Shown in pieces: positions 5,080-13,279 of a DNA stretch of 13,300 nt. Each line of letters starts with the position of its first letter. The first letter of the stretch is position 1. Under the pieces are notes generated by a model that had not been told where the DNA came from, made no database searches, and saw only the letters and a program-made list of their open reading frames with translations. Both the position numbers and the translations under genes were made by a program. Location of the stretch: assembly GCA_900319505.1 (NCBI GenBank), contig ONOV01000126.1, positions 1-13,300 on the forward strand, written 5' to 3'. This DNA is from an uncultured Erysipelotrichaceae bacterium. Lineage in GTDB: Bacteria; Bacillota_I; Bacilli_A; Erysipelotrichales; Erysipelotrichaceae.

Positions 5080-7605
5080 ATGGCAGAGAAATACACGCCG
5101 ATGATTGAACAGTACCTGAAGGTCAAGGAAAATTATCAGGATACGCTGGTGTTCTACCGGATCGGTGATTTTTATGAAATGTTTTTTGATGATGCGAAGA
5201 TTGCATCAAAGGAACTGGATCTTGTTCTGACCGGGAAGAATGCCGGGGCGGAAGAGAAGGTGCCGATGTGCGGTGTGCCGCATCATGCGGTGTCTTCCTA
5301 TATCCAGAGACTTGTTTCAAGAGGCTACAAGGTAGCCATTGTGGAACAGATGGAGGATCCGAAGAAGGCGGTCGGCATTGTCAGGCGTGATGTCATCCGG
5401 GTGATTACCCCGGGCACGGTCATGGAAGAGATCGGTGACGATAAGGCATCGGTGTATCTTGGGGCTGTAGAAGATTATGGCTATGGCTATGCCATCGCAG
5501 CGGCGGAAGCCAGCACGGGTGAAAACTTTCTGGAAGAGATACCGCATAAGGATACGCTGTTTGTCCAGGCCATCATGAAAAACAATATCCGTGAAGTTGT
5601 GGTGGCAGAAGGATTTTCCCAGCGTCTGCTTAAGAGCCTCAGAAACATGCAGGTGGTGATTTCCTATTGTGATAAGACGGAGATACGGGCTGAATATGAA
5701 CCGCTGTGTGAGAATCTGAAGAAGGATTATGAACGGACGGCTTATGGCAGAATGCTCAATTATCTGGAAGAGACACAGCGGCATATGCTGGCGCATCTGC
5801 AGCCGGCAGCGGTGGAGAATGAGAGTGATTTCCTGGATATGGATTACAGTACCAGGATGAATCTGGAGATCTCTGTTTCCGCACATCCGGATGGCAGAGG
5901 AACAACGCTGTGGTCGTTTCTGGATCACTGCCGCTCGGCCATGGGTTCCAGATTATTGAGAAGATGGCTGGAGAAGCCGCTTGTCAAAGTAAAGGATATT
6001 GAAGCCAGATATGACAGGGTGCAGTATCTGATGGATCATTTCATGGAAAGGCAGAATCTGCGGGATGCGCTGAGTCAGGTGTATGATCTGTCGCGTCTGA
6101 TTGCCCGGTGTGCCATGAATACGGCATCTCCGGTTGATCTTGTCAGACTGACAAAGACCCTGGGGCAGGTGCCGGCGGTTCTGGACTGTGTCCGGTGTGA
6201 TGCCTTTGCGGTTTATGCGGGGATTGATCCGCTGAGTGATCTGTATGATGCCTTGAAGGATGCGTTTGCTGAAAATGTGCCGGCTGTTTTAAGCAATGGC
6301 GGTGTGTTTGCGGATGGCTATGATGCTCAGCTGGATGAAGATCGGAAAGTACAGCGGTCCGGCCAGGATTTTATTGCGTCCATGGAAGCCAAAGAAAAGG
6401 AGAAAACCGGCATCAAGACGCTGAAGATCGGGTATAACAAGGTATTCGGCTATTATATTGAAATCTCCAAGGCGGCGGCCAGAGAGGTCAGGCCGGAGTG
6501 GGGGTACATCCGCAAGCAGACATTAGTGAATAATGAGCGTTTCATTTCACCAGAGCTCAAGGAAAAGGAGGATGCCATCCTGCATGCCTCGGATAATGCG
6601 ATTGAGCGGGAAAAGGAACTGTTCCGTGAGATTCTGGAGAAGATCAGAGGCTGTCTGCCCAGGCTTCAGAAGCTGGCCCGGGCTCTGGCGGAGATTGATG
6701 TGTATCAGTCCATGGCGGAAGTATCGGCTGACTATGGCTATGTGAGACCTTCCTTCACGGATGATGTGCTGGATATTGTATCAGGCAGACATCCGATTCT
6801 GGATGAGATGATGAAAGATCCAAGGTATGTTGCCAACAGCGTACACATGGATTCTGAAAAAAGTATTCTGCTGATTACCGGTCCCAATATGGGCGGCAAA
6901 TCCACGTATATGCGTCAGACGGCCCTGCTTGTCATCATGGCCCAGGCCGGCTGCTATGTGCCGGCCCGTTCCATGAAGACGCCGGTGTTTGACAAGATCT
7001 TTACCCGGATCGGTGCCAGTGATGATATTCTGGCCGGCCAGTCCACTTTCATGGTGGAAATGAGTGAAGCCAATAAAGCCCTGCAGAATGCGACGGAACA
7101 CTCCCTGATTCTCTTCGATGAGATCGGACGCGGGACAAGTACGTATGACGGCATGGCCCTGGCCCAGGCGATGATTGAATATATCGCGGCCTGTGTCCAT
7201 GCCAAGACCATGTTCTCCACACACTATCATGAACTGACCAGTCTGACGGATTCCATCGGCTGTGCCAGAAATGTGCATGTGGTGGTGAAGGAAGAGAATG
7301 ATAAGGTGACGTTCATGTATAAAGTAAAGGATGGGGCCGCCGGTCATTCGTATGGTGTCAATGTGGCAAGGCTTGCCGGCCTGCCGGATGCGGTCATTGA
7401 AAGGGCAAAGGAAGTACAGAAGGAGCTGGAAAGCAAGAAGCGGGTTGTGCAGCAGAGCTATCAGCTGGTGGAGATGGAAAAGGAAGATCCTGAGACAAAG
7501 GAAATTGTGGATGAATTGAAACAGGTCAATCCGGATGAACTTTCACCCCGGCAGGCCTGGCAGATGCTGGCAGATCTGAGTGCAGAGGCGAAGAAGGAGA
7601 AATAA
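5080..7605 (+). CDS. mutS: DNA mismatch repair ATPase MutS
   Basis: MutS dimers bind mismatches and small loops in newly replicated DNA and, on ATP binding, recruit the rest of the mismatch-repair machinery. At 841 residues it is of normal MutS1 length. The N-terminal mismatch-binding domain has the Phe-x-Glu motif F31-Y32-E33 (in [12 protein letters not shown]), whose Phe stacks on the mispaired base. Connector, lever and clamp domains follow, and then the ABC-type ATPase: Walker [10 protein letters not shown] at 601-609, Walker [14 protein letters not shown] at 676-688 with catalytic Asp680-Glu681, and the STHYHEL switch at 713-719. The final helices (about 760-841) would form the dimer and tetramer region. 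ATG 5080 has an SD AGGA at 5070-5073. The neighbour two bases downstream is uvrA and not the customary mutL. Confidence 0.97.
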
Positions 7606-7607
7606 GT

Positions 7608-10451
7608 ATGGATGATAAACTGGTCATACGCGGCGCAAGAGAAAATAATCTCAAGAATATTTCACTGGAAATTCCCAAACATAAATTTGTGGTTATGACC
7701 GGTCTTTCCGGTTCGGGCAAGACAAGTCTGGCCTTTGATACGATTTATGCGGAAGGACAGAGAAGATATGTTGAATCTCTTTCTGCCTATGCAAGACAGT
7801 TTCTGGGCGGCGTGGACAAGCCTGATGTGGATAAGATCGAAGGGCTGAGTCCGGCCATTTCCATTGATCAGAAGACCACCAGCAACAACCCCCGCTCTAC
7901 CGTCGGCACAGTGACGGAAATCTATGATTATCTGCGTCTGCTCTATGCCCGCTGCGGCGTTCCCTACTGCCCGCGCCACCACATTCCGATCACCGGCCAG
8001 ACCGTACAGGAAATGACTGATACTCTGATGAATCTTGATGATCGCACAAGGCTTACCATCATGGCACCGATTGTGCGGGATAAAAAGGGCACGTTCAAAG
8101 ACCGGTTTGACAAGCTTCTGAAGGAAGGCTATATCCGGGTCAGAGTCGATGGAGAAATCAAGCTGCTGGAAGATGATATTGAGCTGGATAAGAACAGGCG
8201 CCACAGAATTGATGTGGTGGTGGACCGTATTGTCAAAAATGACAATGCCAGAAGCCGGATTCATGATTCTCTCGAGACGGCTTTGAAGCTGACGGATGGC
8301 AATGCATGTGTGCTGGCGGGAGACAGGGAAATGCTGTTTTCCAGCAATTATGCCTGCCCGGTCTGCGGCTTCTCTGTACCGCATCTGGAACCGCGTCTCT
8401 TTTCTTTTAATGCGCCTTTAGGGGCATGTGATGTGTGCCATGGCCTTGGCATTACGGAAGAAGTGGATGTGGATAATCTGATGCCGGATCTCTCTCTCTC
8501 TATCCGCCAGGGAGGTATCCGCTACTATAAGAACATTGTGGATACGGATAACATTGAATGGCAGACCTTTGAGGTATTGTGTGAGACATATCATATTGAT
8601 CTTGATAAGCCATTGGATCAGATGAGCGAGCATGAGATGAACATTCTTCTGCATGGCTCTGACCGTCCCATTTCCTATACCATTACTTCTTCCGGGGGCA
8701 ATACCTACCAGAAGTCAAGCTATATCGAAGGCGTGAAGGACATGATTGAGCGCAGGTATGTGGAAACCACCTCTTCCTGGAACAAAGAATGGTATCACTC
8801 CTTCATGGTGGAATCTCCCTGCCCCAAGTGCCATGGCGACCGTCTCAATGAACAGGCTTTAAGTGTACGGGTCGGCGATAAGAACATTGCCGAATTCACC
8901 CGCATGTCGGTGGTACAGGCGCTCGGCTGGCTGGACGCGCTGCAGATGGATGAAGAGAAAAAGAGGATTGCCGAACTGGTATTAAAGGAAATACGCTCCC
9001 GCCTGGAGTTTCTCAAGAATGTGGGCCTGGATTATCTGACTCTGGACCGTCTTGCCGGTACGCTTTCCGGCGGTGAGTCGCAGCGCATCCGGCTCGCAAC
9101 TCAGATCGGTTCACAATTGTCAGGTGTGCTGTATGTCATGGATGAGCCTTCCATCGGCCTGCATCAGAGGGACAATGCAAGACTGATCCGCACCATCAAG
9201 GATATGCGGGATCTCGGCAATTCTCTGATTGTGGTCGAACATGATGAAGAGACCATGATGAATGCGGACTGGATTGTGGATATCGGTCCGGGTGCCGGCA
9301 TTCATGGCGGCCAGGTCATGGCCAATGGTACGCCTGAGCAGGTCATGGAAACGCCGGCATCGATTACCGGACAGTATCTTTCCGGAAAGAAGGTCATTCC
9401 CCTGCCGAAGGAAAGAAGAAAGGGCAATGGGAAGTATATTGAGCTGAAGGGCGTAGCGGAACACAACCTGAAGAATATCAATGTGAAGTTCCCGTTAGGA
9501 AAGCTGGTGCTGGTGACCGGGGTATCGGGTTCCGGCAAGTCGACGCTTGTCAATGATGTATTCATGAAGGCGGTGCTGGTGCACCTTGGCCGTCAGAAGA
9601 TCAGACCGGGAAAGTATAAGAGCATCAAAGGACTGGAGAATATCGATAAGCTGGTCCAGATCGACCAGGCGCCGATCGGCCGTACACCCCGTTCCAACCC
9701 GGCTACCTATACCGGTGTCTTTGATGATATCCGGGCGGTGTTTGCCACGACCCCGGAAGCGAGGCTCAGAGGCTATAACAAGGGCAGATTCTCTTTCAAT
9801 ACCAAAGGCGGCCGGTGTGAGGCATGTCAGGGAGACGGCGTGAAGGTTATCCGCATGAACTTCCTGCCGGATGTCTATGTGCCGTGTGAAGTATGTCATG
9901 GCAAGCGGTACAATGAGGAAACACTGCAGTGTACGTATAAAGGAAAGAACATTTATGACGTACTGGAGATGTCTGTGGAAGAAGCCCTGCACTTCTTTGC
10001 CAACCATCCCAGGATCAAGCGCAAGCTGCAGACACTGTATGATGTGGGCCTGGGCTATATCAAGCTCGGCCAGTCCTCCACGACTCTTTCCGGCGGTGAG
10101 GCACAGCGGGTCAAGCTGGCAACGGAGCTGCAGAAAGTAGCGACCGGCAAGACGGTCTATATTCTGGATGAACCGACCACCGGCCTGCATACGGATGATG
10201 TCAGCCGGCTGATTGCGGTGCTGCAGCGGATTGTGGATGGCGGTGATACGGTCATTGTCATTGAACACAACCTGGATGTGATCAAGTGTGCGGACTGGAT
10301 TATCGACCTCGGCCCGGAAGGCGGCGACGGGGGCGGTACGGTTGTTGCCGCAGGAACACCGGAAGATATCATGAAAGTCAAAGAAAGCTGGACCGGTCAG
10401 TATCTGATCAAGGCGGTGCAGTGGACGAAGGAACATCAGAAGCAGGAGTAA
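7608..10451 (+). CDS. uvrA: Excinuclease ABC subunit A (UvrA)
   Basis: UvrA is the damage-sensing ATPase dimer of nucleotide excision repair; it loads UvrB on lesions. The 947 residues match the family norm and both ABC modules are complete. Module 1 has Walker A GLSGSGKT (32-39), a C4 zinc site C250/C253/C274/C277, signature LSGGESQR from 486 and Walker B MDEP with D512-E513. Module 2 has Walker A GVSGSGKS (638-645), zinc site C737/C740/C760/C763, signature LSGGEAQR from 827 and Walker B LDEP with D854-E855. [10 protein letters not shown] motif in the insertion region is also present. The SD AAGGAG (7594-7599) lies inside the mutS end and the start is 2 bases after the mutS stop, so both are read from one mRNA. 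uvrB and uvrC are not in the window. A (CT)6 tract at 8490-8501 lies in frame, encoding part of DLSLSI. Confidence 0.98.
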
Positions 10452-10692: not shown

Positions 10693-10709
10693 GTCACTTC
10701 AGAAGTGAC
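10693..10709. promoter_or_regulatory. 17-bp perfect palindrome at the predicted transcript start
   Basis: GTCACTTC, a central A, then GAAGTGAC. It is just downstream of the proximal -10 and ends 7 bases before the SD (10717-10721). It may be a repressor operator, or a 5' mRNA hairpin (6-bp stem with loop TCAGA) that influences stability or translation. No T-run follows, so it is not a terminator. Confidence 0.5.
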
Positions 10710-10729
10710 GGGAAATGGAGGTGTGTATC

Positions 10730-10954
10730 ATGATGGATTTTCTGAAATGTGAAAAAGGCAATCTCGATCACTATGCCAGACAGACCTGGCAGGTTATGTC
10801 CGGCAGGTATGCACTGACGGAAGTAGATGGTCTGGCATACCATGTCACCATCGGTCCGCAGCGGGTTGTGGTGACGCCGCTGGATCAGAAGGAAAACAGT
10901 TTTGCCCTGCCTACGGTAAAGTTCAAAGCACTGCTGGAGATGTTCAGAATCTAG
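10730..10954 (+). CDS. Small protein of unknown function, first gene of the hprK operon
   Basis: A 74-residue product that I do not recognise. It starts MMDFLKCEKGNLDHYARQTW and has no signal peptide or membrane segment. The middle (YHVTIGPQRVVVTPL) looks like beta strands and the end (FKALLEMFRI) like a short amphipathic helix. An excellent SD, GGAGG at 10717-10721, sits 8 bases before ATG 10730, which is why I place the start there and not at the in-frame ATG 10715 that overlaps this SD; ATG 10733 is a second option. Only 35 bases separate its stop from hprK, with no terminator, so it is probably co-transcribed. Codon use resembles its neighbours, which supports a real gene. A role in HPr kinase or catabolite control is suggested by position only. 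Confidence 0.7.
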   Translation: MMDFLKCEKGNLDHYARQTWQVMSGRYALTEVDGLAYHVTIGPQRVVVTPLDQKENSFALPTVKFKALLEMFRI

Positions 10955-10989: not shown

Positions 10990-11946
10990 ATGGCAGATAA
11001 AAAAGTATACACAAAAAAGGTGACAGTCAGAGAGATTGTTGACTTTTTCAAATTTGAGAGACTGACCGGCGATGACAAGTCGCTGGACAGATGGACGGTT
11101 GTACCGGATATCAACCGGCCGGGGTTCGAACTGTGCGGGTTCTATAAGCGCAGCGATCCCCGCAGAATTATTGTTATCGGCAATAAGGAATCCGAGTTCA
11201 TCAGGACCATGACGGAAGAGGAGCAGCGGACCCGCTTCCCGATGATTACCGACGGCCTGACGCCGATGATCATTATTACCCGCAACAATGAACTTCCGCC
11301 GATCCTGAAGGAAATCGCTGATTCACAGGATTTCCCGATTGTCCGTACGAATATGGAAACGTATCGTCTGGTGACGGATCTGATTACGTTTCTGGACGAG
11401 AAGATGGCGGATGAGGATACGATCAGCGGTACGCTGATGTCGGTTTACGGCAAAGGCGTTCTGATTTCCGGTGAATCCGGCATGGGCAAAAGTGAAACCG
11501 CCCTGGAACTGATCCGGGATGGACAGGTGCTTGTTTCAGATGACCGGGTTGATGTGGAACATGTTCACAACAAGATCTTCGGCTATGCGCCGGAGATCAT
11601 CAAAGGCCTTCTGGAGATCAGAGGCATCGGCATCATTGATGTGGAAAAGATGTTCGGCGCCAGTGCCATGGCCAATCGGTCGGAAGTGAATATGGTCATT
11701 GAATTAGTCAAGTACAGTGCTGCGGATGAGTACAACCGGATCGGGGATGAAACAACCCACTATACAAGAATCCTTGATGTACTGATTCCGACAATTGTGC
11801 TGCCGGTATCGCCCGGCCGCAATATGAGAATTCTGGTCGAATCGGCAGTGACCAATTTCATTCTGCAGGAAGCAGGCTATTCTTCTTCTCAGGAAATCAA
11901 GCGGCGCTTCAGAGAGTATGCCGGAAAGGAAGGCGGCAATGTTTGA
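10990..11946 (+). CDS. hprK: HPr kinase/phosphorylase, with altered active-site residues
   Basis: HprK phosphorylates HPr on Ser46 with ATP or PPi and removes the phosphate phosphorolytically. It thereby sets the level of the CcpA co-effector for carbon catabolite repression. The 318-residue product has the N-terminal domain (about 1-130) and the kinase core with Walker A GESGMGKS at 161-168 (K167), LVSDDRVD with D184-D185, the HprK signature LLEIRGIGIIDV from 207 and YNRIG with R250. Two departures stand out against my recollection of the B. subtilis enzyme. The segment aligned to IHGVLVDIYG reads ISGTLMSVYG, so the catalytic His (His138) is Ser146. The dephosphorylation loop PVRPGR is PVSPGR (S274). 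Kinase elements look intact, so phosphorylase activity may be the part changed. An SD GAGGAA (10978-10983) fixes ATG 10990. It overlaps the next gene by 8 bases. Confidence 0.93.
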   Translation: MADKKVYTKKVTVREIVDFFKFERLTGDDKSLDRWTVVPDINRPGFELCGFYKRSDPRRIIVIGNKESEFIRTMTEEEQRTRFPMITDGLTPMIIITRNNELPPILKEIADSQDFPIVRTNMETYRLVTDLITFLDEKMADEDTISGTLMSVYGKGVLISGESGMGKSETALELIRDGQVLVSDDRVDVEHVHNKIFGYAPEIIKGLLEIRGIGIIDVEKMFGASAMANRSEVNMVIELVKYSAADEYNRIGDETTHYTRILDVLIPTIVLPVSPGRNMRILVESAVTNFILQEAGYSSSQEIKRRFREYAGKEGGNV

Positions 11947-13255
11947 TCATGTGACATTCCGCTGGCAGGGCATCTTCTTCCTGATCGGCGCCTTCATGGC
12001 CTATATCTTCATGCGCAAGGACATGAAGCATAATGGCTATGTGGCTGCGTATGCGGAGGAAATGCTGCTGGGGGAGACGATCTGCGGTCTGCTTGGGGGC
12101 AGACTCGGGTGGTATCTCATCAATGGCTTTGATGACATCAGATACTTCTTCCGGTATTGGGATGGAAGGTTTGATGTACTGGGTGCGGTGCTGCCGTGTA
12201 TTCTCTTTCTGTTTATCTACAGCCGCAAAAATCTGATGTCTTTCAGAAGGGCGATGGACTGTGCCCTGCCGCATGTGCTGTTTCTGACGGCGGCTGCGTA
12301 TTTCCCGTATATCTTTTCCAACATACGGATGCTGTTAGTGGTAGGGGTGGATGCCCTTGGCTGGCTGCTATTGGAAGTGGTGTTCCGGGTCTGGTATCAG
12401 GATAAGCACAGAGGCGATCGAGCTGCCCTTGCCTTATTGTGGATCGGACTGTCCCGCTATTTCATTTATGTAGCGGAATACGGCAGAGCGGAAATGAAAC
12501 TTGTCATGAAGCTGCCGGGGCTGGTCACTGCCGTTGTCGGCCTGATCCTGTATCTGTTCAACCGCTTCAAGAAGAACACCGTCAAGCCGCTTGTGCTGTT
12601 TGACTTTGACGGTACACTCATGGATACCAAAGCCATGGTGGATGAATCCTACCGTTTTCTATTCAACAAATACCGTTCCGTCGATGACTATGATGACCGG
12701 ACACAGATCGAGGTGTTCGGCGCCAACGACCGGGCGGTCATCCGCAAATACTTCAAGAATGAAGACACAGCCGAACTGACCCATGAATTCCGGGCTTTCC
12801 AGGCAGATCTGCCGGCCCTGGGCCTGGTCAATACGATGCCGCATGCCCTGGAAGTGCTGATGTGGCTCAAGAAGAACGGCTATGCAGTAGGCGTTGTTAC
12901 ATCAAGACCTACTGACAACTGCCGGATGTGGATTGAAGAGTTTGATCTGGAAGATTACATTGACTGCGTCATGGGGGCCGAGGCATATAAGAAAGCCAAG
13001 CCGGCGCCGGACGCGTTAAGAAGAATCTGTCAGGAAATGGGCAGAGGCCATGATAACTGTGTGTACATCGGCGACCATGCCAGAGATGTACGGATGGGAC
13101 GGCGTGCCTGTGTGTATGCCATCGGCTATCTGACCAGTGAAAAGAATGAAAAGCGTATTGCCCGGGCAAAGCCCAACCGTACCATTACGGACCTGCTGGA
13201 ACTGGAAGATATCCTGCAGGAAACAGACCACAACTGGACGTACAATCTGCTGTAA
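11939..13255 (+). CDS. Fusion: Lgt-like membrane domain (catalytic residues lost) + PpaX-like HAD phosphatase
   Basis: From ATG 11939 (SD AGGAAGG, 11927-11933) it has 438 residues. Residues 1-215 form about six membrane segments that align with prolipoprotein diacylglyceryl transferase: GGRLGWYLING (53-63), then RYWDG (72-76), then SF and D (101-107). The Lgt catalytic His (FHGG) is Leu81 (DVLGA), and GRxGNFxN is replaced by AAYFPYIFSN (119-128), so transferase activity is unlikely. Residues 216-438 are a complete HAD subfamily I phosphatase: DFDGT with nucleophile D222 and D224, T321 (VVTSRP), K354 (KAKPAPDAL) and GDHARD with D379/D383. This resembles PpaX, the pyrophosphatase encoded near hprK in B. 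subtilis, where lgt also lies between them. Inference: a membrane-tethered phosphatase for PPi, P-Ser-HPr or another small phosphate ester. The in-frame ATG 11918 is less likely because it precedes the SD. Confidence 0.85.
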   Translation: MFDHVTFRWQGIFFLIGAFMAYIFMRKDMKHNGYVAAYAEEMLLGETICGLLGGRLGWYLINGFDDIRYFFRYWDGRFDVLGAVLPCILFLFIYSRKNLMSFRRAMDCALPHVLFLTAAAYFPYIFSNIRMLLVVGVDALGWLLLEVVFRVWYQDKHRGDRAALALLWIGLSRYFIYVAEYGRAEMKLVMKLPGLVTAVVGLILYLFNRFKKNTVKPLVLFDFDGTLMDTKAMVDESYRFLFNKYRSVDDYDDRTQIEVFGANDRAVIRKYFKNEDTAELTHEFRAFQADLPALGLVNTMPHALEVLMWLKKNGYAVGVVTSRPTDNCRMWIEEFDLEDYIDCVMGAEAYKKAKPAPDALRRICQEMGRGHDNCVYIGDHARDVRMGRRACVYAIGYLTSEKNEKRIARAKPNRTITDLLELEDILQETDHNWTYNLL

Positions 13256-13279
13256 ACGCTGTCAGCTGACAGCGTTTTT
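13254..13279 (+). terminator. Rho-independent terminator of the hprK operon
   Basis: A perfect 24-base palindrome (13254-13277; core CGCTGTCAGCTGACAGCG) ends in a T-run, 13275-13279. The stop codon TAA (13253-13255) overlaps its left foot. The last 21 bases of the window hold nothing I can assign. Confidence 0.85.

Follow-up and report, generated by a model that had tools for sequence, protein, structure and literature searches.

The window, that is, the whole stretch of 13,300 nucleotides analysed here, carries an hprK gene followed by a gene encoding a degenerate Lgt domain joined to a HAD phosphatase (Table 1). The fusion gene is a single open frame running from an ATG at 11939 to a TAA at 13255; an alternative in-frame ATG at 11918 would give a protein of 445 aa and a junction with hprK of -29 nt. 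The length of 438 aa obtained from the downstream ATG is also that of 10 of the 13 closest database proteins; about 8000 candidates were scored in the protein database searches, and figures from these rest on the best matches listed, at most 120. The sequence-only reading of this DNA had placed an Lgt-like domain and a complete HAD domain in one frame overlapping hprK, an arrangement borne out by the Pfam matches (LGT, 44.9 bits; HAD_2, 121.8 bits, residues 219-396) and by the overlap of 8 nt. The names mutS and uvrA were assigned by recognition and are assumed here. The palindrome and T run 3' of the fusion gene do not appear in the output of a simple terminator scan.

Table 1. Features of the window, with positions counted along the whole stretch
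Feature	Position	Strand	Evidence
mutS (assumed)	5080-7605	+	
uvrA (assumed)	7608-10451	+	
Small uncharacterised frame, at most 81 aa, just 5' of hprK	10709-10954	+	
hprK, HPr kinase/phosphorylase, 318 aa	10990..11946	+	Pfam Hpr_kinase_N 112.7 bits, Hpr_kinase_C 192.3 bits
Fusion gene, degenerate Lgt domain + HAD phosphatase, 438 aa	11939..13255	+	ORF; Pfam LGT, HAD_2
Overlap of hprK stop and fusion start, 8 nt	11939..11946	+	Sequence reading
Pseudo-Lgt membrane domain (residues 1-214), predicted to have seven helices and a cytoplasmic C-terminus	11939..12580	+	PF01790, 5AZB, hhalign, hydropathy
Gln10, aligned with Tyr26 of E. coli Lgt	11966..11968	+	5AZB comparison, alignment
Leu81, aligned with His103 of E. 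coli Lgt	12179..12181	+	Alignment
Tyr121 and Tyr124, aligned with Arg143 and Asn146; the head domain that comes next (E151, G154) deleted	12299..12310	+	Alignment
Arg173, aligned with Arg239 of E. coli Lgt	12455..12457	+	Alignment
HAD phosphatase domain	12584..13225	+	Pfam HAD_2; Asp222, Asp224, Lys354, Asp379, Asp383 invariant
C-terminal tail DHNWTYNLL, aromatic	13226..13252	+	Match to a loose pattern (FTY, or W followed by S/T/A/N)
Palindrome AACGCTGTCAGCTGACAGCGTT with a T run, probably a transcription terminator	13255..13279	+	Sequence reading

Lost catalytic residues and predicted topology of the Lgt half

An HMM search of the N-terminal segment with PF01790 confirmed the proposed relation to Lgt: the match covers residues 5-115, exceeds the cut-off of 24.9 bits and spans profile positions 9-121 of 240 only. 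E. coli Lgt (PDB 5AZB) aligns with residues 5-118 at an E-value of 7e-8, and profile-profile comparison (hhalign) of the window's clade with intact Lgts gave 98.9% probability (E 2e-17) over residues 2-178. The framework motifs GRLGWYLIN and RYWDG are present and GRxGNF is gone, as had been noted from the sequence. By these comparisons the N-terminal half is of common ancestry with Lgt, with which it also shares the predicted seven helices, but it differs from Lgt in that both the signature (GRxGNF..NxE..G) and the head domain are missing and in that it falls far below the TIGR00544 equivalog cut-off of NCBIfam (29.5 vs 118.9 bits).

According to the available text of two studies, the residues essential in E. 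coli Lgt are Y26, H103, R143, N146, G154 and R239 (PMC13251419; see also PMC4728403). The window retains one of these six, R239, as Arg173. The same positions were compared in 29 degenerate fusions, a set in which identical sequences are counted once and from which HAD rows with few matched profile positions (including the contig-cut gene of genome G024) were dropped. N146, E151, G154 and the head domain are lost in all 29, the window included, and N146 is replaced by Arg in 24; R143 is retained in 28, R239 in 22 and Y26 in 22, the window being the only sequence that has lost R143. In the intact fusions described below, N146, E151, G154, R143 and R239 are retained in 16/16, and Y26 in all 14 that reach that position. 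It is thus very unlikely, judging from its residues, that the Lgt half of the window is a working Lgt. The replacement of the catalytic His by Leu81, on which the sequence-only reading had relied, does align with His103 but proves little, since 13 of the 16 intact fusions have Gln and the other 3 have His at this position, which is Tyr in Firmicutes according to the available text of a 2026 Lgt survey (PMC13251419).

Other features of the membrane half are conserved. The polar positions R73, D129 and an RG loop are kept in 29/29 degenerate sequences, and seven hydrophobic segments with a positive-inside bias and the C-terminus inside were predicted by hydropathy in all 8 degenerate sequences examined, Lys and Arg in the window's membrane half numbering 14 on one side and 5 on the other. 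This simple scan is not precise, since among four intact fusions it returned seven segments in two and five and six in the other two.

The arginine pattern would also fit a continued role in lipoprotein or phospholipid biology, in which the pseudo-Lgt binds phosphatidylglycerol (PG), or partners the separate Lgt, and signals to the HAD and HprK. R143 and R239, both frequently kept, line the PG pocket of E. coli Lgt in the available text of PMC4728403, and the change of N146 to Arg points the same way; however, the window itself lacks R143 and Y26, and the stand-alone HADs of its genus manage without an Lgt half, so that we consider this reading unlikely. A related speculation, to which we give a slightly lower chance, is that the pseudo-Lgt may be a membrane lipid sensor coupling the state of the membrane to the PPi/Pi balance that steers the direction of HprK/P, given that the two pocket arginines are mostly kept and a third is gained. 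The window, having lost R143, would then be a weakened or altered version, and carbon catabolite control would read membrane status.

Distribution, descent and selection

A match to the N-terminal part occurs in 30 of 70 genomes of the window's genus. Both domains lie in one frame in 29 of these, the gene of G024 being cut by a contig end, and hprK is in the same locus in 30/30, so that the survey of related genomes bears out the proposed fusion. Of the sequences found in the genus, the two nearest to the window match its N-terminal half at 55-60% identity, and an isolate of Lactimicrobium massiliense (L062) carries the same fusion at 70% identity. A sequencing or assembly error is ruled out by this recurrence across the genus and in an isolate. 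For the 29 degenerate sequences, with the window counted from the ATG at 11939, the spacing between hprK and the fusion runs from -8 to +12 nt.

Intact Lgt::HAD fusions were found in Holdemania filiformis, Anaerorhabdus furcosa, Erysipelothrix (P0138, P0151, P0015) and several MAGs. With the Holdemania protein as query, 2062 matches were obtained at E-values up to 1e-50; all of the best 120 contain both domains and 117 of these measure 482-489 aa. The intact fusions resemble the degenerate ones in domain order, in a similar C-terminal tail and in near-universal adjacency to hprK (11 nt or less in 13/16, 621 nt in L082, two being cut by contig ends), and differ in that the GRxGN signature is kept and that no second Lgt was found in their genomes. 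The named intact fusions among the best 120 matches are annotated simply as (pro)lipoprotein diacylglyceryl transferase, and the LGT Pfam domain is assigned to intact and dead fusions alike, which is a warning for annotation.

The order of events was reconstructed from a rooted HAD tree of 83 rows, comprising 75 HADs of the fusion family and 8 PpaX-type rows; the 38 other-HAD rows had been cut to 12, 10 of which were dropped from the rooted tree, the remaining two (L019 and L134) being given new labels manually. With this choice of rows, the 75 fusion-family HADs form one clade beside the PpaX-type rows (support 100/97). From the lgt-adjacent PpaX outgroup the tree proceeds through paraphyletic intact fusions to the window's genus, where one clade holds 23 stand-alone HADs and 3 HprK::HAD fusions (100/99) and the other holds 30 degenerate fusions with 3 stand-alone HADs nested inside (100/99), the fork uniting both being weaker (90/84). 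The degenerate N-domains are also monophyletic in a quick tree (SH-aLRT 98). On this topology, the intact Lgt::HAD fusion is the ancestral state and the dead Lgt the derived one, and the placements of the stand-alone HADs imply three or more losses of the Lgt half within the genus, with the HAD staying by hprK, a count subject to the caveat that L018 sits on a long branch. The idea that a dead Lgt has been retained stands, given the loss of five of six essential residues and the purifying selection found in relatives; what changes is the sequence of events, as the fusion predates the death of the Lgt. Judged by sequence, an important membrane enzyme has here clearly become a non-catalytic domain, and living relatives still show both the earlier and the later state.

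Two other origins of the N-terminal half were considered. A derivation from YvoD, a putative membrane protein encoded between lgt and yvoE in B. subtilis according to the available text of PMC12345273, need not be invoked, since the half matches LGT and intact intermediates exist. A copy of the separate Lgt found in the same genomes is ruled out, since in the quick tree the separate Lgts form a clade distant from the degenerate N-domains.

Selection on the two halves was compared in pairs of degenerate sequences, those being listed in which each half had a dS under 1.8. Among the listed pairs, dN/dS in the 23 closest is 0.03-0.19 for the N-terminal half and 0.02-0.13 for the HAD half, and in the eight closest the N-terminal values are 0.03-0.08; more distant pairs, which are less reliable, reach 0.82 and 0.49. 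No pair including the window came under the dS limit, so that selection was measured in its relatives rather than in its own clade. The aligned N-terminal half measures 216 codons in the listed pairs and 202 in the five pairs with L004. Mean pair identity in the degenerate clade is 0.41 for the N-terminal half and 0.53 for the HAD, the reverse of the order in intact fusions (0.55 and 0.46), suggesting that catalytic constraint has gone and structural constraint has been kept.

Free decay of the Lgt half is argued against by the low dN/dS in close relatives. It could still be a fossil with no role of its own, carried in frame before a HAD that is needed, with selection acting merely to keep the membrane protein harmless during insertion. 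Repeated loss of the Lgt half while the HAD stays, together with its faster evolution in the degenerate clade, would suit a fossil of this kind, yet the dN/dS of the closest pairs, the nearly constant length and the invariance of R73, D129 and the RG loop weigh against it, and we hold it to be unlikely.

Separate Lgts and the lipoprotein pathway

A search with PF01790 in 22 genomes reached through the loci found no separate Lgt in 17/17 genomes with intact fusions (in G077 and G080 two contig-end pieces were taken as one gene, and the gene of G081 runs into a contig end), while one is present in 5/5 with degenerate fusions. The absence is not airtight, since the PF01790 control list lacks B. 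subtilis, which has lgt in the available text of PMC12345273. A second search, covering 60 listed genomes and that of the window, recovered a separate near-full-length Lgt in all 14 of its degenerate-fusion genomes, the window's own included; these represent 14 of the 30 genomes of the genus that carry this fusion, and the two sets share two genomes (G060 and G061 apparently being G034 and G035). A separate Lgt is likewise present in the genomes that lack a degenerate match, the exceptions being G006 (none) and G018 (two pieces). Extra LGT-domain frames occur in addition to the main Lgt in two genomes of the genus without the fusion (G013:C60:32276-32923, 100.8 bits; G004:C96:30243-30860, 40.1 bits).

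The proposed search for a second lgt in the window's genome thus found one; it belongs to a distant type that has Cys where N146 is expected. All 11 separate Lgts examined read GRxGCFxAGCC, with Cys at that position; the separate Lgt of this lineage at locus L001 (1462-2226, minus strand) carries GRIGCFFAGCCYG where GRxGNF is expected. In the window's genome the separate Lgt falls narrowly short of two NCBIfam cut-offs (282.8 of 334 and 115.7 of 118.9 bits), so that its activity is putative. In the available text of PMC13251419, E. coli was not restored by Lgts from monoderms. LspA is encoded in the window's genome, and a lipobox, by our own pattern, occurs at 4 of 5 sugar-binding-protein loci; lipidation therefore presumably continues through the separate Lgt.

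The HAD half and its association with hprK

The fused HAD resembles PpaX (NF009804; YvoE of B. subtilis, which we take to be PpaX) in fold, motifs and hprK neighbourhood, and PpaX is its best-scoring family; it differs in being joined to a membrane domain and in carrying an extra aromatic C-terminal tail. Asp222, Asp224, Lys354, Asp379 and Asp383, presumably the HAD catalytic motifs, are unchanged across 46 aligned HAD sequences. PpaX was the top NCBIfam model for 7/7 HADs tested, at 291 bits for a stand-alone PpaX of Sporosarcina, 232 for a stand-alone PpaX of the sister family, 185 for the Anaerorhabdus fusion, 162 for HprK::HAD, 136 for a stand-alone HAD of the genus, 132 for a degenerate relative and 97.5 for the window. 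The equivalog cut-off is 218 bits, and the low score of the window's HAD means that its substrate may have changed. On sequence comparison the HAD of the window is nonetheless placed in the PpaX lineage that adjoins hprK.

The pattern of the aromatic tail occurs in 29/29 degenerate and 16/16 intact fusions and in none of 26 stand-alone HADs, 3 HprK::HAD proteins and 7 PpaX. Among the proteins tested it is therefore confined to fused Lgt::HAD proteins, where it perhaps touches the membrane domain.

In 3 of the 70 genus genomes (G030, G027 and G091; loci L030, L032 and L199) HprK is fused in frame to a PpaX-like HAD, and three database proteins of this type (P0018-P0020, 533-537 aa) are found among the best 120 listed of 1198 matches. 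The HAD of the genus proteins is orthologous to that of the window and derives from a common fused ancestor, but it joins HprK instead of the Lgt remnant and lacks the aromatic tail. By these placements the HAD accompanies hprK through fusion, fission and refusion. In the available text of PMC2405797, HPrK is a single polypeptide except for a tandem HPrK in Fusobacterium, and ptsK always occurs with lgt in Bacillales and Lactobacillales; the B. subtilis cluster is given as hprK-lgt-yvoD-yvoE-yvoF (PMC12345273, available text). No paper on an Lgt::HAD fusion was found among the open-access matches listed; in its available text the Lgt survey PMC13251419 does not use the word 'fused' and notes a C-terminal extension in one Lgt.

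We favour, as the probable though far from certain reading, a PpaX-type HAD phosphatase acting together with HPr kinase/phosphorylase, with a catalytically dead Lgt domain as its hold on the membrane. The ancestor would have been a working Lgt fused with PpaX inside the hprK operon. With a distant Lgt on hand for lipidation, the active site and the head domain of the fused Lgt would then have disappeared. Selection would have maintained the seven-helix body, as an anchor or as a module for interactions, in 30 of the 70 genus genomes, and elsewhere this body would have been deleted. HprK/P would strip phosphate from P-Ser-HPr by phosphorolysis, yielding PPi, and the nearby HAD would hydrolyse this PPi, pulling the reaction and returning Pi. 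Such a HAD would be a partner of HprK, would take PPi as its substrate and would be tethered next to the PTS at the cytoplasmic face. The anchor itself is dispensable, since the Lgt half has been lost at least three times.

A relation between PPi and PpaX was reportedly the subject of work in 2002. An HPr with a serine site, as we assign the motif, is encoded in the window's genome. PPi is the product of P-Ser-HPr phosphorolysis, and in Brucella a PPase binds HprK/P in yeast two-hybrid assays, both according to the available text of PMC2937029. Two DHHA2-domain proteins, possibly PPases, are also encoded in the window's genome, so that a local PPase is not obviously needed. Because the phosphatase occurs in nature fused either to Lgt or to HprK, its two neighbours, it becomes possible to test how HPr kinase/phosphorylase is linked to a dedicated pyrophosphatase.

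The HAD could instead act on a phosphate ester linked to Lgt, such as glycerol-1-phosphate. Such a substrate would agree with an ancestral fusion whose Lgt looks active and with the fused HADs scoring under the PpaX cut-off. However, Lgt works extracytoplasmically according to the available text of PMC12345273 and the HAD is predicted to lie inside; moreover, the HAD remains by hprK after loss of the Lgt half and is fused to HprK in three genomes, which makes this alternative highly improbable.

A further fusion involving HPr occurs in the window's genome (L235, 1495-2790, plus strand), where an HPr domain (PTS-HPr, 76.6 bits) is joined to a D-2-hydroxyacid dehydrogenase with 2-Hacid_dh Pfam domains. 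This HPr domain presumably keeps the His15 motif and differs in the Ser46 region.
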